64,000 bases of DNA from Pseudomonas oryzihabitans NBRC 102199 (GTDB taxonomy: Bacteria; Pseudomonadota; Gammaproteobacteria; Pseudomonadales; Pseudomonadaceae). Location: positions 558,001-622,000 of the forward strand of contig NZ_BBIT01000002.1 of NCBI RefSeq assembly GCF_000730625.1, in the 5' to 3' direction. A program made the translations under genes and the position numbers. A model generated the notes under the pieces. That model was not told the origin of the DNA and did not search any database. It saw nothing but the letters and a program-made list of their open reading frames with translations. Position 1 is the stretch's first letter; each line of letters begins with the position of its first letter. This document shows, in pieces, positions 9,231 through 18,270 of the stretch.

Positions 9231-9246
9231 ATAGAGGAGGGTGGTG

Positions 9247-9996
9247 ATGGTCGAGACGGAAGTGTTGCTGGAAGAGGTCGTCGATGACCATGGCCGGATC
9301 CGGGTGGTGGAGGTGGGGCCTTATCGCTTCCTGGAGTTTGGCGAGGAGGTGGAGCAGAGCTGCGTCTTTACGGCGGACCCCGCCTGGCTGGAATACGACT
9401 ACAACCGCGCCATGCTGCTGGGCGCGCTCTGCCACCCGCAGCCGCGGCGAGCGCTCTTTCTCGGCCTGGGCGCCGGCACCCTGACCCAGGCCTGCCTCAA
9501 GTGGTTGCCCCTGGAGGCGGTGGAAGCCCTGGAACTGCGCCCCGCGGTACCGCGCCTGGCGCGCCAGCATCTGGGCCTCGACGAGGACCCGCGCCTGGCC
9601 ATCCGCATCGGCGATGCCCTGGACCTGCTCGACAGCGCGGCGCCTGCCGATCTGATCTTCGTCGACCTCTATACCGATGTCGGCCCCTCCAGTGCCCACT
9701 TGGCCTGGCGCTTCCTGGAAAATTGCCAGGCCAAGCTCAACCCTGGCGGCTGGCTGATGATCAACCAGTGGAGCGCCACCGACGGCAAGCCCCTGGGCGC
9801 CGCACTGCTGCGCGGCCTGTTCCGCCATCATTACTGGGAGTGCCCGGTGGTCGAGGGCAATGTCATCCTGCTGGTGCCGGCCAGTCGGGAGCAGGAGCTG
9901 GACGTGGCGGGCACGCGGCAGCGCGCCCGGGAGTTGACCCCGCGGATAGGGTTCGATGTGGAGGCCTATCTGGACAACCTGCGTGCGGCAACCTGA
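9247..9996 (+). CDS. Spermidine synthase-like (Rossmann-fold) protein
   Basis: 249 residues with the spermidine/spermine synthase fold: the S-adenosyl nucleotide-binding motif LFLGLGAGTLTQ near residue 75, an acidic residue at the end of the next strand (VEALELRPAV), and GDALDLL with DLIFVDLYTDVG. Lengths and motifs match the short spermidine-synthase-like proteins common in pseudomonads, whose activity is mostly unverified. The ATG at 9247 lies 6 nt after a perfect aggagg, so it is preferred over the GTG at 9241. Confidence 0.78.
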   Translation: MVETEVLLEEVVDDHGRIRVVEVGPYRFLEFGEEVEQSCVFTADPAWLEYDYNRAMLLGALCHPQPRRALFLGLGAGTLTQACLKWLPLEAVEALELRPAVPRLARQHLGLDEDPRLAIRIGDALDLLDSAAPADLIFVDLYTDVGPSSAHLAWRFLENCQAKLNPGGWLMINQWSATDGKPLGAALLRGLFRHHYWECPVVEGNVILLVPASREQELDVAGTRQRARELTPRIGFDVEAYLDNLRAAT

Positions 9997-10278
9997 CCAC
10001 AAAAGTAGACCAAGGTTCTCTGGAGAAATGTCCAGGGTTCGGGTATCATTCGCCCCGGTCTTTTTGACCTTCCGTTCAGGAACTGCATTTTCCCGGTCCG
10101 CCGCCATGGCCACACCGGTCGTGCGTTCGCCCGACGGCGAACAATCCTAGACGCTTCACCCCTTTTTCATCCGCTATTTCGCAAAAAGCTCACACCTTGG
10201 CTGCCTGGGCGACTTCGGTCATTCGGATAAGCGCAGCTCTTGGCTTTGGGGTCTTTGCGAAGCACACGAGGCAAGACA
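9997..10278 (+). promoter_or_regulatory. Long leader region upstream of deaD
   Basis: 282 bp without a gene. A TATCAT (about 10043-10048) could be a -10 box, which would give deaD a 5' untranslated leader of over 200 nt. Long structured leaders are common for cold-shock-type helicase mRNAs. I see no recognised riboswitch. This is an inference from spacing only. Confidence 0.35.
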
Positions 10279-11973
10279 ATGACCCAGGACACCAGCGGTT
10301 TCGCTGCGCTCAATCTCAATCCCGCCATCCTCGCCGCCATCAAGGCCGTCGGCTACGAAGAGCCGTCGCCCATCCAGTCGCAGTCCATCCCGGTGATTCT
10401 CTCCGGCCACGACATGATCGGCCAGGCCCAGACCGGTACCGGCAAGACCGCAGCCTTCGCTCTGCCGCTGCTCTCCAAGCTCGACCCGTCCCGCCGCGAA
10501 CCCCAGATTCTGGTGCTGGTTCCCACCCGTGAACTGGCCCTGCAGGTGGCTACCGCCTGCGAAACCTATTCCACCGAGATGCCCGGCGTGAAGGTCGTGG
10601 CCCTCTACGGCGGCGCGCCCATGGGCCCGCAGCTGAAGTCCCTGCGCATGGGCGCCCAGGTTCTGGTCGCCACCCCCGGTCGTCTGTGCGACCACCTGCG
10701 TCGCGACGACAACCTGCTGGCCACCGTCCAGCACCTGGTGCTCGACGAAGCCGACGAGATGCTCAAGCTGGGCTTCATGGATGACCTCGAATTCATCTTC
10801 GAAGCCATGCCGGAATCCCGCCAGACCGTGCTGTTCTCGGCGACCCTGCCGCCGTCGATCCGCGCCATCGCCGAGCGTCACCTCAAGGAGCCGCAACACG
10901 TCCGCATCGCGGCCAAGACCCAGACCGTCGCCCGCATCGAGCAGGCGCACCTGATGGTCCACGCCGACCAGAAGCCGGCCTCGGTGCTGCGCCTGCTGGA
11001 AGTGGAGAACTTCGACGCCCTGATCGCCTTCGTGCGCACCAAGCAGGCGACCCTGGACCTGGCCGAGCTGCTGGAACGCCAGGGCTATCGCGTCAGCGCC
11101 CTGAACGGCGATATGCCCCAGGCCCAGCGCGAGAAGACCATCGAGTCGCTGAAGGATGGTTCGCTGGACATCGTGGTCGCCACCGACGTCGCCGCTCGCG
11201 GCCTGGACGTGGCGCGCATCACCCACGTCCTGAACGTGGACATGCCCTACGATCCGGAATCCTACGTGCACCGTATCGGTCGTACCGGCCGTGCCGGTCG
11301 TGAAGGTCGCGCGCTGCTGCTGGTCACCCCGCGCGAGCGCCGCATGCTGCAGGTCATCGAGCGCGTCACCGGTCAGCGCGTCGGCGAGATCCGCCTGCCC
11401 GACGCCGAAGCCGTGCTGGAAGCCCGTATCTCCCGCCTGGCCGATGGCGTGGGTTCGCTGCTGGCCGATGCCGACACCACCCATGGCGCCCTGCGTCAGG
11501 AGCTGTGCGAGCGTCTGCAGTGCGATCCCTCGACCCTGGCCGCGGCCCTGCTGGCCAAGCTGACCAGCGGCCGCGCCCTGGACATCGAGTCGGTCCGTCG
11601 CGAGCAGCCGCTCACCCCCGGCGCCGGCCGTGGCGAGCGTCCCCGTGGCGAGCGCAGCGAACGGGGCGATCGTCCCGAGCGTGGTGAGCGTCCGGACCGT
11701 GGCGAGCGTCGTCCGATGCAGCCGTTGCCGGAAGGCCGCGTGCGCTGCCGCACCGCCCTGGGCGCCCGTGATGGCGTCGCCGCCAAGAACCTGCTGGGTG
11801 CCATCATCAACGAAGGTGGCATGGATCGCGAGGCCATCGGCCGCATCCAGATCCGTGACTCGTTCAGCCTGGTGGAGCTGCCCGAGGAAGGCCTGGAGCG
11901 TCTGCTGACCAAGCTCAAGGACACCCGTGTAGCCGGCAAGGCCCTGCGCCTGCGTCGCTATCGCGAGGATTGA
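10279..11973 (+). CDS. deaD: ATP-dependent DEAD-box RNA helicase DeaD/CsdA
   Basis: 564 residues. All helicase motifs are visible: the Q motif (EEPSPIQSQSIP), motif I AQTGTGKT, Ia PTRELALQ, II DEAD (LVLDEADEML), III SAT, V ATDVAARGLD and VI HRIGRTGRAGR. A DbpA-type RNA-binding domain follows near the C-terminus, separated from the core by an Arg/Gly/Glu-rich linker with GER(P/S) repeats (about residues 450-480). DeaD remodels RNA during ribosome assembly and cold adaptation. ATG 10279 (MTQDTSGF) is the family start. A terminator follows. Confidence 0.93.
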   Translation: MTQDTSGFAALNLNPAILAAIKAVGYEEPSPIQSQSIPVILSGHDMIGQAQTGTGKTAAFALPLLSKLDPSRREPQILVLVPTRELALQVATACETYSTEMPGVKVVALYGGAPMGPQLKSLRMGAQVLVATPGRLCDHLRRDDNLLATVQHLVLDEADEMLKLGFMDDLEFIFEAMPESRQTVLFSATLPPSIRAIAERHLKEPQHVRIAAKTQTVARIEQAHLMVHADQKPASVLRLLEVENFDALIAFVRTKQATLDLAELLERQGYRVSALNGDMPQAQREKTIESLKDGSLDIVVATDVAARGLDVARITHVLNVDMPYDPESYVHRIGRTGRAGREGRALLLVTPRERRMLQVIERVTGQRVGEIRLPDAEAVLEARISRLADGVGSLLADADTTHGALRQELCERLQCDPSTLAAALLAKLTSGRALDIESVRREQPLTPGAGRGERPRGERSERGDRPERGERPDRGERRPMQPLPEGRVRCRTALGARDGVAAKNLLGAIINEGGMDREAIGRIQIRDSFSLVELPEEGLERLLTKLKDTRVAGKALRLRRYRED

Positions 11974-11999: not shown

Positions 12000-12034
12000 A
12001 GGCCCCGGCGCTGTAAGGCGTCGGGGCCTTTTTG
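12000..12034 (+). terminator. Rho-independent terminator after deaD
   Basis: An inverted repeat (aggccccg(g)cgc ... gcgtcggggcct) is followed by a TTTTTG tract, 27 bp after the deaD stop codon. Confidence 0.9.
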
Positions 12035-12193
12035 TTGCGCAGGACGTCTGGTACGACCAACCTGTGCTCACGCGCGTATACGCTACGGGTCGCCGTTTTC
12101 CCCCTTGCGAAGGGACTGGTAGGCCGCGAAATCCACGGGAACGGTCTCAGGCAAGAACCGTGGGAGGAGTGGGATTGCGAGCGCTGCTAAGGG

Positions 12194-13438
12194 CTAGCTG
12201 CCTCTGACAGCGAGATGTACCTGGTAATGTTCCAGAACGTACTGGACGTCTTCGGCGACTCTTTGCCGCTCCCCACAGAATACGAAAGTACCCAGGCCAT
12301 CCTTGTGGCAGAAAAAGGCGCCCGACGCTATGTCTCCCGGACGCGGTAGGGTCTTCATGCTCAATGTCGAAAGGCTTTCGATCGCTGCGAGCGTCACGTG
12401 GGAGACATGGAGCGTTTCGCGGGACAGGTGCTTTTTCGGAAACATCATATAGGCCCAGGCTTCGCAGCGGCGGCTGGTCTGCAGGGATTCACAGAGGCCG
12501 AGTTGCAGGGCGAGGTGAAGCAGGCGCAGGTCCAGGCCATGAGCGAACGCTATCATCTCGGTCGTATGTCCGCCGCCCGGGCGGAAGGCGATTTCCAGCA
12601 ATTCCAAACCAGCGCCTGCGTCGCCGAAGGCTTCGATGTGATAGACCCCGTCAGGGCAATCGAACGCAGCTATCACCTGTTCGGCGAAGGGACGCCAGAG
12701 CGCCTCGAGATCCTCCTGGGGAACTGAGAGATACCCCAGTGGTTGCTCGGCAAGGTAGTCGATGGGTTTCCCCAGGTATTCACCGGCACTGAGGAACGCC
12801 AGTTGCTTGCCGAGAACGATGGCATCGAGTTGATACAGAGGCTGGCTGTTATAGGTTTCGATGATGTACTGGTGTTCGCTCATGTCCTGGTAGCTGTCAC
12901 CCGTATCGCGGGGGAGGCCGGAGAGCTCGCGGGCATCGGTGATGATCCTGACCCCCACGGCGCCCGCCAGCGATCGGGGTTTCAGAATGACCGGAAGGGT
13001 CGCCGCGCCGCTTTTCAGCTCGTCGAAGGTGACTTCCTTGGCGGTGGGTATGTTGAACAACTGGGCGATCTGTTTCATCCGCTTCTTGTCGCGAAAGCGC
13101 ACAGCCATATCGAGCGTAAGCCCTGGCAAGCCCCAGCGATCGTTGGCCCACGCCGCGACGTGCACCGCGAATTCGTCATTGGGAAGGACTGCGGTAATGG
13201 CGTAGGTGTCGGCGATTCGACCAAGGACGCTGTCAATTTCGCCATGGACGGCGAAATCCCGGACCAGGAAGGTGTCGCTCCGCATCAATTCCGCTCCAGC
13301 CTGGCCCAACAGGTCCTCCAGGAGGTAGACGAATGTCCATCGCGCTAGCTCATAGGTGTCTCTGAGTCTGGCGACCACCTCATCGACATCCAGTTCGGAG
13401 GAAATGATCAATAGGGTGTTGGGCTGGTCAATTCTCAT
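12194..13438 (-). CDS. ATP-grasp ligase B of an amidinotransferase cluster
   Basis: 414 residues, an ATP-grasp carboxylate-amine ligase. The N-terminal region (NTLLIISSELDVDEVV) is a Rossmann-like preATP-grasp domain. The ATP-binding core shows FRDKKRMKQIA, LPVILKPRSLAGAVGV (nucleotide-binding Lys) and GLELLEIAFRPGGG (metal-binding Glu and Arg). It is clearly paralogous over its whole length to the upstream ligase (13499-14722), so the pair arose by tandem duplication. Such enzymes activate a carboxylate as an acyl-phosphate and join it to an amine. Substrates are unknown; a guanidino amino acid from the neighbouring amidinotransferase is a reasonable inference. It is the last gene of the three-gene operon. 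Confidence 0.82.
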   Translation of the reverse strand: MRIDQPNTLLIISSELDVDEVVARLRDTYELARWTFVYLLEDLLGQAGAELMRSDTFLVRDFAVHGEIDSVLGRIADTYAITAVLPNDEFAVHVAAWANDRWGLPGLTLDMAVRFRDKKRMKQIAQLFNIPTAKEVTFDELKSGAATLPVILKPRSLAGAVGVRIITDARELSGLPRDTGDSYQDMSEHQYIIETYNSQPLYQLDAIVLGKQLAFLSAGEYLGKPIDYLAEQPLGYLSVPQEDLEALWRPFAEQVIAAFDCPDGVYHIEAFGDAGAGLELLEIAFRPGGGHTTEMIAFAHGLDLRLLHLALQLGLCESLQTSRRCEAWAYMMFPKKHLSRETLHVSHVTLAAIESLSTLSMKTLPRPGDIASGAFFCHKDGLGTFVFCGERQRVAEDVQYVLEHYQVHLAVRGS

Positions 13439-13498
13439 GATGAACGGGGCCTTTGGTCGTGACGGATATCTGTGGGAGCAGCGGTCCCAGGCCGCTAT

Positions 13499-14722
13499 CT
13501 ACGGTTCAGCGGCCACAGCGACGCTGTAATGCCTGTTCAGGTAGTCGATGTCCTGAAGCACGAGATCGCGATCGCCGCAAAAGACGAATGAGCCCAGCGA
13601 GTCCTTGTAGCAGTAGAATTCTCCCGAAGCGACGTCGCCGGCCTTGGGTATCGAATGGGTGCTAAGCGTTGGCAGATTTTCCAGGGGTGGTAAGGACACC
13701 TGGGTGACGTAAAGCGGTGTGAGGGAAAGGTGCTTTTTAGGAAAGGTCATATAGCCAAAGGCTTGGGCCTTCCGCTGGATATCTAGTGAAGGTTCCAAGC
13801 CCAGTTGTGCCGCGAGATGGATTAGCTTCAGGTCCAGTCCGTAGACCATCTCTATCATCTCGACAATGGCCGCGCCGCCAGGTCGATAGGCGATTTCCAG
13901 CAGTTCTGCGCCAGCAAAGGCCTCTATGTGATAGACCCCGTCAGGCGCATCGAAGGCGGCTATCACGGCTTCGGTAAAATGGCGCCAGATATTCTCGATC
14001 ATCTCCTCGGGAACCGCTATCACGCCGACCGGTTTTTCCTGCAGGAAATCCATGGGTTTGCCTAGATATTCGCCGACCGATAGGAAGGCCAGTGTTCCTT
14101 TACGGACGATACAATCAATATGGTAGATGCAGGCTGGATTATAGGTTTCGATAAGATACTGATGTTTGCTCATATCCTGATATTCAGGGTTCGAATCGAT
14201 ATCGATGGACGACATTTCGTCTGCTTCGTTAATGATCCGGACGCCTTGAGCGCCCGCTAGTGAGCGCGGTTTGACGATGATGGGAAACTGCACCTGCCCA
14301 AGCTTGATTTCATCGAGCGTTATTTCTCTGGCGGTCCTGATTCCTGCGCGCTGAGCGATCTCTTTCATTTTCTTCTTGTCGCGAAACCTTTGCGCCTCTT
14401 CTCGGGTGATGCCTGGAAGTTGCCAGCGCTCATTTGCTGAAGCGGCTACGTAGAGCGAAAATTCGTCGAAAGCCACCGCGGTAGAAATGCTGTAGTGGCG
14501 AGCTATCTTATCAAGGGCTGCCTCTACCTCGGTGGCGATGGCGAAGTCAGAGACGAGAAAGTTTTCCGGGCGTTTCAATTCCTCTCGCGCCTCGCCCAGA
14601 TAATCCTCCAGCAGGAAGACGAACCTCCAGGTCTGCAGGTCATACTTCGCCTTGAGCGCCGCTACGTTCAAGGCGACATCCAGGTCGGAAGAAACGATCA
14701 GTACCGTATGTTCGAGCTGCAT
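13499..14722 (-). CDS. ATP-grasp ligase A of an amidinotransferase cluster
   Basis: 407 residues, ATP-grasp fold, paralogous to ligase B downstream: HTVLIVSSDLDV, RFRDKKKMKEIA, FPIIVKPRSLAGAQGV, HQYLIETYNPA and AELLEIAYRPGG align block for block. The ATG at 14722 is used because it has an AGGA ribosome-binding sequence, while the TTG at 14728 does not. The base composition is visibly less GC-rich than flanking housekeeping genes, with A/T-ending codons, suggesting acquisition. Two different ligases beside one amidinotransferase suggest two successive amide bonds in the product. It is 60 bp upstream of ligase B and 99 bp downstream of the amidinotransferase. Confidence 0.82.
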   Translation of the reverse strand: MQLEHTVLIVSSDLDVALNVAALKAKYDLQTWRFVFLLEDYLGEAREELKRPENFLVSDFAIATEVEAALDKIARHYSISTAVAFDEFSLYVAASANERWQLPGITREEAQRFRDKKKMKEIAQRAGIRTAREITLDEIKLGQVQFPIIVKPRSLAGAQGVRIINEADEMSSIDIDSNPEYQDMSKHQYLIETYNPACIYHIDCIVRKGTLAFLSVGEYLGKPMDFLQEKPVGVIAVPEEMIENIWRHFTEAVIAAFDAPDGVYHIEAFAGAELLEIAYRPGGAAIVEMIEMVYGLDLKLIHLAAQLGLEPSLDIQRKAQAFGYMTFPKKHLSLTPLYVTQVSLPPLENLPTLSTHSIPKAGDVASGEFYCYKDSLGSFVFCGDRDLVLQDIDYLNRHYSVAVAAEP

Positions 14723-14754
14723 TTCCAAATCCTGTCATGCTTGCGGCTATTGGT

Positions 14755-14781
14755 GCGCGCAGGGCCTCGGGCCCTGCGCGC
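14755..14781 (-). terminator. Perfect 12-bp hairpin between amidinotransferase and ligase genes
   Basis: GCGCGCAGGGCC and its exact complement are separated by 3 nt. There is no T-run on the transcribed side, so it looks more like an attenuating or mRNA-stabilising hairpin than a full terminator. It lies in the 99-bp gap within the operon. Confidence 0.5.
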
Positions 14782-14821
14782 CTAGAGCGCCCCACTATTT
14801 CCAGATGGGCGCCGGAAGTCT

Positions 14822-15922
14822 TCAGATATAACTTTTCAGGCTTCCGCGCCGTTTGACATCCAGCGTGGCACAGTGGAAGGAACCACCGAAGGTCTGAAAG
14901 TGCTTGAAGGGACAGAGGATGGTCTTGAAACCCCACTGGCGGAAGGCGTTGATCAGAGCCTCCTCGTCCTGCTCGACGACCACCGTTCTTTCGTCCAGCA
15001 TCAGCACATTGATGTGAATCCACTTGGAAGTGATGTAAAGAGGATGGTCGTCGGGCAGGTTGGACGGCGGCGGAGTCAGGATTTCCCAATCTTTGAAGAT
15101 GTCAGGAATTTGCGGTACCCAGCCCTTGTTGACGAGTACGCGGCCTGGCGCCAGCGGCAGTATCGTCGTGTCGATGTGCATGGGTCCTGGCTCTTCGAAC
15201 TCATAGATATGGATGCGATAATCCGATCCGAGGGTTCTGCGCAGCCATTCGATGCCCTTGTTATTCGTTACATGGCTACGCTGGCCGATGATGTCGCGGC
15301 CCATCTTCATGAAGTCGGCCGCGTCAAATAGCGGTTCCACCTCGGTGATTATGGAGTTGAATGGAATCTCCTGGTCGAAGTCATAATCCCTTTTCCAGAT
15401 GTTGTCTTTCAGCATCGGCTTGGGGGCTGAGATCCAGTCAGCACCTCTGCTGAAGTAATCGTTCAGGATGTCACGAAAAGCGAAGGTCTCGAAGTAACGG
15501 CTGCGCCAGGCCATGGGCACTTCAATGATCTTTTTGCCGATTGCGAAAAGGCAGTCCCTTGGCATGGCGGAGTAGAAGGTGCCACCTGTAGTGAAATGGG
15601 GAGTCACTATGGGCTGATGGTGATTGAACTCGTTTGGCCGTTTTACTCTTATGCCCTCGGCTTCCAGGATCCTGGCCAGCGTATTGACTTCCTGCCTGGC
15701 CTTGATGACCAGCTCTTCCGGAAATCGCTGTCCAGAGTATGTCTGGAAAAAGTCGCTCGACTCTCTGGGTATGATGGCTCTCAGACCGGTATCCCATTCA
15801 GGTACGCGGATGTCATCCATTATGCCAACTATGACCTCCTCCAGGGGATCCCACTCCGTATAGACTTCTACGGGGCTTTCCAGGTTGGAAAAGGATGACG
15901 GCTCTTCTGTTTGGAATTCCAT
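14822..15922 (-). CDS. L-arginine:glycine-type amidinotransferase
   Basis: 366 residues, homologous to arginine:glycine amidinotransferase (AGAT) and its relatives in toxin pathways (phaseolotoxin AmtA, CyrA, SxtG). The catalytic triad is conserved with near-AGAT spacing: D200 in LFDAADFMKMGRD, H249 in GPMHIDTT and nucleophile C351 in GGSFHCATLDVKRRG. QRSHVTNNKGIEWLRR, PDDHPLYITSKW and NVLMLDERTV also match AGAT. The enzyme should move the amidino group of arginine onto an amine acceptor (glycine, lysine or another amino compound), releasing ornithine. It is first in a three-gene operon with two ATP-grasp ligases; no transporter or regulator adjoins. The acceptor is not predictable from sequence alone. 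Confidence 0.9.
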   Translation of the reverse strand: MEFQTEEPSSFSNLESPVEVYTEWDPLEEVIVGIMDDIRVPEWDTGLRAIIPRESSDFFQTYSGQRFPEELVIKARQEVNTLARILEAEGIRVKRPNEFNHHQPIVTPHFTTGGTFYSAMPRDCLFAIGKKIIEVPMAWRSRYFETFAFRDILNDYFSRGADWISAPKPMLKDNIWKRDYDFDQEIPFNSIITEVEPLFDAADFMKMGRDIIGQRSHVTNNKGIEWLRRTLGSDYRIHIYEFEEPGPMHIDTTILPLAPGRVLVNKGWVPQIPDIFKDWEILTPPPSNLPDDHPLYITSKWIHINVLMLDERTVVVEQDEEALINAFRQWGFKTILCPFKHFQTFGGSFHCATLDVKRRGSLKSYI

Positions 15923-16887
15923 GATAAATGGCCTTCGGCAGTAAATGAAGAGTATATGTTTGGCGAAAAAATAGTGGGTGGCAAGAGAGGCGGTTAGGAA
16001 GTTATATATTGTCGGATTATAAGATGACGGTATTCGTATGTGGTGGTCGGGTGCCGGTGCTAAGGGTGCGGGTGAGTGTACGCGCCTTCTGCTTAATTGA
16101 TAGTTCTTGCTTGGGTGGTGATTTGTAGTGGATGTTCCTGATTACTGCTGCGTTTTTCTGAAATACCTGTGGTTGGCGGCTTGGCCTGGTTAGGCTAGTT
16201 CATATAACGAAGATGCGCCGGTCCGCGCGATAGGTATTGGCATGCATGTAATAAGCAGGCCGAAAATTGATATGCTGATAGTATTTCTTTGGAAATCATG
16301 CTGCTGGCATGTTCATGGCTTATTAAAGTCGCTTCGCGAGATTCCACGTTGCGGGGAGGGGCTACGGGGCGCTATCGAAGGCCCACTGTGGAAGTTGCTC
16401 AGGAGGTTGGGCTGCACCTTGCCAGCATCGGTACCCTGTGACGCGAAGATACGCTGGTCAAGGCTGATCGCCGCCCGGCTGTGCCTTTCCTGCAAATCGG
16501 GATAGGCCGGTTCGCCAGCGGCACAAAGGGAGATGCCTAATCACTGGAGTGCTCGTCCTGGAGTCACAGATAAGTCTTCGGCGTCGAATGCTCCTGGAAG
16601 GGGCAGGGCAGCCTGGGTATCGAAGGCCTGGGCCTTTCCAGCGGGGCCGCAGCAGCACGTTCGCTTCAGCTCAGACCGCTGTCTCTTTGCCGAGCCAAGA
16701 TGCGATCTGGTGGGCGGCAATGAGTATTGCCAAGGGAGGGCGGGCTTGGCTGTGCTTCGTGGCTGTCAGCGATATATCAGCATCCTACCGGGCAGCGGTC
16801 CGGATGCCGCCTGCGCTAGCGGTCTGATTGCGCCCAGCCAAGGGCGCCGAGGTACGTCCAGATTCGGCCGCAGGGTCTGTGGTCGCT
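15923..16887. other. Gene-poor region, AT-rich in its first half
   Basis: 965 bp with no frame that looks coding. Bases 15940-16300 are clearly more AT-rich than the rest of the window and probably hold the promoter of the amidinotransferase operon. Bases 16300-16890 return to high GC, and short open frames on both strands there (for example 16533-16910 plus, 16458-16658 minus) lack family signatures and good ribosome-binding sites. A decayed gene is possible but unproven. Confidence 0.5.
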
Positions 16888-18270
16888 TTAAAGAATTACC
16901 TTGTCCTTGAGCTTTTCCGCCGCCAGCTGCAGCGCCTGGATGACCCGCTCCTTGTCGTAGTTCTGGATATTGTTGGTGTCCAGGTACATGGAGAAGCCCG
17001 GCAGTTCGTGCTCGACATAGCTGGGAGAGGCGCCCAGGTCGCGACGGAAGTCCACCACCTGATAGATCTGCACCGGCTTGCTGAAGCCCTTGACGGTGAT
17101 CCAGCTCTTGTCGCGGCACATGATGGTTTCCTTGACCAGCGAGTAGGTCTCGTGGCTGATCAGGATCTCGCCGGCATCGGCGGCATTCTCCAGGCGGCTG
17201 GCCAGGTTCACTTCGCGACCGATGATGGTGTAGTCCATGCGCGTGCTGGAGCCGAAGTTGCCGACCGTGCAGTAACCGGTGTTCAGGCCCATGCGGATCT
17301 CCAGCGGCTTGTTGATGCCCTGGCTGCGCCACTGCTGGCGCAGGACCTTCATGTGCTTGCGCATGGCGATGGCCATGGAGACCGCGGCCACGGCGTCCTT
17401 CTTGGCGCCCTGGCTGTTGGCGTCGCCAAAGAACACCATGACGCAGTCGCCGACGAACTTGTCGATGGTGCCACCGTATTTGACGGCGATCTTCGACATC
17501 TCGTTGAGGTAGTTGTTGAGCATGTCGGTGAGGGCTTCGGCCTCGAGTTCTTCGGACAGCTCGGTGAAGCCCTTGATGTCGGAGAAGAACACCGTGATCT
17601 TCTTGCGCTGGGTACCCAGGGCGATGTGCTGCTTGCCGGTGAAGATGGACTCCCAGACCTGGGGCGAGAGGTATTTGGCCAGGTTGTGCGCGAGGATCGC
17701 CGACTTTTCCTGCTCGCGCTTGAGATCGTCGTTGATCTGGATGAGGCGCTTGCGCTGGCGATGCAGGAAGTAGCCGGTGCCCCAGAGGTGCAGCATGGTG
17801 CCCACCACGCTGGTGACCGCCACCAGCAGCGGACTGGTGAGGTCGACACCCTGGAAGAAGGTGGCGCTGCCCAGCGCCGCGGCGCTGGTGGCGAACAGCA
17901 GGCACAGGCCGAGCAGGCGCGGGCCACCGCGCAGCATGCTGGTATAGCCGAGCATGAACAGCAGCATCAGGGTGGGCATCAGCGGGAAGCGCAACACCAC
18001 CGCGGCCATGCCGACATGGATGGCGTCCAGGGCGGCGAGGATGATATCGGTCTGGGCGCCGCGATCGCGTCTGAGCTTGAGACTCAGGGTCTGGGCCACA
18101 TGGGGGTAGAGCAGGGCATAGGGGATCAGCCACAGGCCCACCGCATCGGCCTGAGTGTAGTACCCGGCGGTGACGCTGGCGGCGGCGATCAGGTAGGCGA
18201 ATACCCGGGCGTAGTAGACGCCCAGGCTGTCACCGGACGCAGCGAGGAACCGGTTGAGCGCAAACTTCAT
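16888..18270 (-). CDS. cyaB: Class III adenylate cyclase with MASE2 membrane domain (CyaB)
   Basis: 460 residues. The N-terminal ~200 residues are a MASE2-type membrane domain with about six helices; the C-terminal part is a class III cyclase domain: ITVFFSDIKGFTELSEE (metal-binding Asp), KFVGDCVMVFFGD (second metal Asp), IRMGLNTGYCTVGNFGS and DYTIIGREVNLASRLE. This is the arrangement of P. aeruginosa CyaB, which makes the cAMP that activates the virulence regulator Vfr. The start MKFALNRFLA is unambiguous. It is divergent from a nitroreductase gene. Confidence 0.92.
   Translation of the reverse strand: MKFALNRFLAASGDSLGVYYARVFAYLIAAASVTAGYYTQADAVGLWLIPYALLYPHVAQTLSLKLRRDRGAQTDIILAALDAIHVGMAAVVLRFPLMPTLMLLFMLGYTSMLRGGPRLLGLCLLFATSAAALGSATFFQGVDLTSPLLVAVTSVVGTMLHLWGTGYFLHRQRKRLIQINDDLKREQEKSAILAHNLAKYLSPQVWESIFTGKQHIALGTQRKKITVFFSDIKGFTELSEELEAEALTDMLNNYLNEMSKIAVKYGGTIDKFVGDCVMVFFGDANSQGAKKDAVAAVSMAIAMRKHMKVLRQQWRSQGINKPLEIRMGLNTGYCTVGNFGSSTRMDYTIIGREVNLASRLENAADAGEILISHETYSLVKETIMCRDKSWITVKGFSKPVQIYQVVDFRRDLGASPSYVEHELPGFSMYLDTNNIQNYDKERVIQALQLAAEKLKDKVIL

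Follow-up and report, generated by a model that had tools for sequence, protein, structure and literature searches.

Between the DEAD-box helicase gene deaD and the cyclase gene cyaB, Pseudomonas oryzihabitans NBRC 102199 carries three reverse-strand genes that encode an amidinotransferase (HsvA) and two ATP-grasp ligases (HsvB and HsvC; Table 1). They lie in a stretch of 64,000 nucleotides (contig NZ_BBIT01000002.1, positions 558,001 to 622,000 of the forward strand), referred to here as the window. A preliminary description made from the sequence had called this operon uncharacterised, which does not hold: a homologous operon, hsvABC (PSPTO_0873-0875), has been published together with its product, phevamine A (PMC13123061, PMC7343908, PMC3879358), and HsvA matches the solved structure 5WPI from end to end. 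It is very probable, judging from sequence comparison, that the three genes are an hsvABC operon, with phevamine A or a close analogue as the predicted product.

The strongest evidence comes from HsvA. Its match to PDB entry 5WPI, which is HsvA of Erwinia amylovora, covers residues 1-366 (E 1.7e-227, 758 bits), whereas the next structure matches are SxtG at 348 bits (E about 1e-102) and AGAT at 341 bits (about 1e-100). AGAT, SxtG and the StrB-type enzymes (1bwd) belong to the same family and have the Asp-His-Cys triad in common with HsvA, but all are far weaker matches, at no more than 348 bits. These matches bear out the AGAT-type assignment of the preliminary description, and the triad that it named (D200, H249 and C351) is present and invariant in 11/11 aligned HsvA sequences; Photorhabdus australis (locus L016) was excluded from this count and from alignments A1 and A2. 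A Pfam search assigned no family to HsvA. In a title cited by PMC12833800, HsvA is named a polyamine amidinotransferase.

The two ligases had been described as duplicates of one another, and HsvB and HsvC are indeed 54.8% identical. In eight homologous loci, HsvB is 63-77% identical to the product of the gene that follows hsvA, and HsvC is 57-75% identical to that of the third gene. A tree of 20 ligases places HsvB and HsvC in separate clades with one of each per genome, and the duplication therefore predates the spread of the operon. Pfam searches with HsvB and HsvC gave only below-threshold ATP-grasp hits. Their predicted structures (mean predicted local distance difference test scores of 89.7 and 88.5) are both nearest to the L-amino acid ligase RizA (4wd3), with E 6.2e-25 for HsvB and 2.4e-26 for HsvC. 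The ATP-grasp fold and aligned catalytic residues are common to RizA, BL00235 (3vot), BacD/YwfE (3vmm) and both Hsv ligases. Residues E269, E278 and R282 (HsvB numbering), which are invariant in 20/20 aligned ligases and present in both HsvB and HsvC, are what we take, partly from alignment to RizA and BacD, to be the Glu/Glu/Arg set that binds metal and phosphate in the ATP-grasp site. The structure alignments to L-amino acid ligases nevertheless have only 15-18% identity and a root mean square deviation of about 5-6, and those enzymes act on a free amino acid as acceptor whereas the acceptor predicted for HsvB and HsvC is an amidino-polyamine. A further alignment (A3) comprised 14 ligases, without HsvC of L011, HsvB of L008, L010, L011 and L012, and the ligases of L013 and L016.

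Gene order is the second line of evidence. A scan of genome contigs, which returns close relatives only, found 11 loci with HsvA relatives at 74-96% identity: P. tremae, P. caricapapayae, P. californiensis, P. avellanae, P. amygdali, P. oryzihabitans KNF2016, E. mallotivora, P. stewartii and three Photorhabdus. The A-B-C order known from E. amylovora and P. syringae is kept here and in eight of these 11 loci (the P. syringae group, E. mallotivora, P. stewartii and KNF2016), so that the three genes mostly do not scatter, the outcome that the preliminary description had named as evidence against a joint pathway. Two things speak against strict co-occurrence: the three Photorhabdus loci have hsvA with a single such ligase in another cluster, and a published Erwinia strain lacks hsvC (PMC5663808). 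The full-length match to solved HsvA and the conservation of gene order across other genera together indicate that the operon is more than a chance grouping.

Table 1. The hsv operon and its surroundings, in window coordinates.
Feature	Coordinates	Strand	Description	Basis
hsvA	14822..15922	-	366 aa; polyamine-type amidinotransferase; first gene of the operon	PDB 5WPI match and D200/H249/C351
hsvB	13499..14728	-	ATP-grasp amino-acid ligase; 409 aa from TTG 14728 or, the likely start, 407 aa from ATG 14722	homologues
hsvC	12194..13438	-	ATP-grasp amino-acid ligase, hsvB paralogue, 414 aa	identity to third gene, structure model
AT-richer stretch upstream of hsvA	15923..16887	-	presumed leader and promoter region	common to P. 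oryzihabitans KNF2016
deaD-to-cyaB inter-stop segment	11974..16887	.	4914 bp; taken as insertion	
deaD flank	10240-11973		DEAD-box/DbpA helicase	
cyaB flank	16888-18270		MASE2 and adenylate/guanylate cyclase	

Phevamine A consists of a modified spermidine, L-Phe and L-Val (PMC7343908); it is described as a small amino-acid/polyamine conjugate of plant pathogens that dampens plant immunity, and in E. amylovora and P. syringae hsvABC has been linked with virulence (PMC13123061, PMC3879358, PMC7343908). By analogy with these published homologues, which provide the substrates, product and biological effect assumed here, HsvA would use the standard Cys-His-Asp chemistry of amidinotransferases to transfer the amidino group of arginine to a polyamine, which is most likely spermidine. 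A supply of spermidine is to be expected, since the genome carries the spermidine-synthase and AdoMet-decarboxylase families. HsvB and HsvC would each spend ATP on turning the carboxylate of an amino acid into an acyl phosphate, from which a single amide bond is formed. Amidino-spermidine would thereby receive two amino acids, which in P. syringae are Phe and Val, and the conjugate would then exert an extracellular effect on plant immune signalling. With a polyamine as acceptor, the product would be an amide of an amidino-polyamine and not a plain guanidino peptide.

The operon has a patchy distribution. Among 13 genomes of the genus, hsvA is found in two, and both carry it in the same slot between deaD and cyaB; another genome of the genus (G006) has a distant ATP-grasp ligase (27% identity) without hsvA. 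The distance between the flanking stop codons is 61-105 bp in seven of the 11 non-carriers and 780-804 bp in three. The remaining one, G010, which is another species of the genus, has a gap of 2548 bp that holds other genes: a LysR regulator, a 208-aa protein without a Pfam match and a metallo-beta-lactamase-superfamily protein (L066, C1:533700-536700). Given this different 2.5-kb stretch, the gap may be a preferred site of insertion. In a sample of 390 genomes from the order, HsvA had a match in 10 and HsvB in 75 but, this genome aside, identities did not exceed 47% and 37%, respectively; the other carrier, G003, evidently lies outside this sample because it would have matched. Of 72,556 plasmid records, 45 match HsvA, and only three, from Pantoea (87.4%), do so above 60% identity, so the first gene of the operon is also found on plasmids.

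The lower GC content that had been noted for the two ligase genes is evident in 600-base windows, at 0.50-0.61 across 12000-16800 compared with about 0.61-0.72 in the flanks. A repeat scan of the segment gave no sign of long flanking repeats by which a mobile element could be named, an Rfam scan gave no match, and promoter- and terminator-like sites in the segment were fewer than in shuffled sequence. The earlier picture was right in that three enzymes encoded on an insertion would lead to a small guanidino product, and in that neither an exporter nor a regulator is adjacent.

Comparison of the two carriers, this genome and KNF2016, suggests that their operons stem from one shared insertion, because the stretch upstream of hsvA aligns over its full length with 75-84% identity per 300-base bin. 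The proteins have diverged unevenly: HsvA is 95.9% identical between the carriers, HsvB 77.1% and HsvC 74.9%, against 99% for the flanking cyclase, 97% for a sensor kinase and down to 92% for other flanking proteins. The ratio of nonsynonymous to synonymous substitution (dN/dS) is 0.19 for each ligase and 0.03 for hsvA. The deaD gene was omitted from this comparison: its values (dN/dS 0.80 with four stops) are an artefact of the coordinates used, as deaD appears in KNF2016 as two open reading frames (L015:12112-13844), reflecting either a sequencing error or a real break. The proportion of synonymous differences (pS) in hsvA codons 1-180 is 0.16-0.34, close to that of four flanking genes (0.18-0.30), whereas it reaches 0.53-0.62 for codons 181-360; hsvB and hsvC have 0.46-0.49 over their whole length. 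The jump begins inside hsvA at about codon 180 (about 15380 downwards in the window) and resembles a recombination break. The simplest reading, which we infer from these patterns, is that, after a single insertion, a diverged allele took the place of the ligase end.

Because HsvA is so nearly identical in the two carriers and the ligases are not, the amino acids that are attached may have changed. A possible, though less favoured, form of the phevamine-type reading is therefore that HsvA makes amidino-spermidine to which the diverged HsvB and HsvC add amino acids other than Phe and Val. Beyond the contrasts in identity and dN/dS given above, this is suggested by 25 HsvC positions that are fixed in seven other operons and altered in both carriers, including 290, 293 and 298 directly past the conserved RPGG, and by 18 such entries in HsvB, two of which are gaps. 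Set against this, a dN/dS of 0.19 indicates purifying selection, the ligases of plant pathogens vary too (HsvB of P. tremae is 69-70% identical to that of others in the syringae group), and the idea that altered residues line the pocket is itself deduced from the motif. Moreover, "fixed in seven" overstates the case because four of the seven comparison operons are near-identical syringae-group copies. The patchiness and lower GC content could alternatively mark a silent or decaying remnant of horizontal transfer, and neither an hrp-box nor an injection system was detected in the carriers (see below). However, such decay is improbable given that none of the three reading frames is interrupted in either carrier, that the catalytic residues are conserved without exception and that dN/dS is 0.03-0.19. 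A role in primary creatine-type metabolism was rejected on the same patchiness (2/13 genomes of the genus).

Phaseolotoxin is made by amidinotransfer followed by ATP-dependent ligation. The preliminary description drew on this model in predicting a guanidino di- or tripeptide; such a product, whether or not it resembled phaseolotoxin, would have ornithine, lysine or glycine as its base. What is shared with that route, which uses AmtA and ligases (PMC13123061), is the general plan. The pairing of an AGAT-family enzyme with ATP-grasp ligases does invite the idea, and a guess made in 2014 for PSPTO_0873-0875 was similar (PMC3879358). The pathway logic was close, but the acceptor was not, being a polyamine in the published route: the nearest solved relative is HsvA, which a cited title calls a polyamine amidinotransferase, and later papers assign phevamine A to the homologous operon. 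On these grounds the guanidino peptide was rejected and appears highly unlikely.

Several observations weigh against a phevamine operon of the studied kind. The ligases are 57-71% identical to those in the fetched plant-pathogen operons, which is low enough that the amino acids attached could differ. The link to E. amylovora and P. syringae DC3000 runs through the 5WPI match and the papers, neither organism being among the fetched loci. Finally, regulation and perhaps role may be unlike those of the studied cases, since neither duplicates of the type III export families nor an hrp-box were found. PF01313 and PF00771 have one match each in this genome and in KNF2016, which we infer to be flagellar, compared with three each in P. 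tremae and E. mallotivora; by these copy numbers, no type III injection system was detected in either carrier. Using what we take to be the hrp-box consensus, we found no hrp-box in the 900 bp upstream of hsvA here, in KNF2016 or in the three Photorhabdus loci, and the whole window has no exact match to the pattern. This absence carries little weight because, of seven plant-pathogen loci, the scan found a box with 0-1 mismatch in four (one at 896 bp upstream) and none in the other three; boxes with at most one mismatch also arose in 36/500 shuffles.

The pathway is a known one, and what stands out here is a Pseudomonas host without a detected injection system together with the divergence of the ligases. 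The copy differs from the studied hsvABC in its P. oryzihabitans-group host and in its position between deaD and cyaB. In our literature search, no paper was found that joins phevamine to oryzihabitans or Photorhabdus, or Pseudomonas oryzihabitans to an amidinotransferase. More tentatively, this may be a free-standing phevamine-type operon, freed from HrpL and type III secretion, whose product is an analogue carrying different amino acids, an immune-dampening metabolite useful on its own; the Photorhabdus form, in which hsvA is joined to an aminopropyltransferase, an AMP ligase and an ABC transporter, would then widen amidino-polyamine conjugates to bacteria of animals. We regard this as doubtful. 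The locus lends itself to the question of whether molecules of the phevamine type can work in the absence of type III effectors, and the two carriers, in which HsvA has hardly changed while the ligases have diverged, could be compared to map the determinants of ligase specificity.

The Photorhabdus loci differ in content. The HsvA homologue (74-77% identity) lies in a larger cluster (L014:7116-16482, with the same open reading frames in L013 and L016) that encodes a spermidine-synthase-family protein, HsvA, a PaaK-like AMP ligase, one HsvB/C-like ATP-grasp ligase, an ABC ATPase, two ABC-2 permeases and a 429-aa protein without an above-threshold match. The cluster, as annotated on L014, also encodes a fatty-acid-desaturase-family protein that has as its best, below-threshold NCBIfam hit the guanitoxin arginine hydroxylase GntB. 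This may be an undescribed cluster for an amidino-polyamine conjugate. In Photorhabdus australis, hsvA (L016:8001-9097) is broken in two where the frame changes at about codon 257. Back in the window, a second, weak spermidine-synthase-family protein lies beyond deaD (9241-9996, 251 aa, PF01564 6.3e-07), in a flank shared with KNF2016 (95.6%), and is probably unrelated to the hsv operon.

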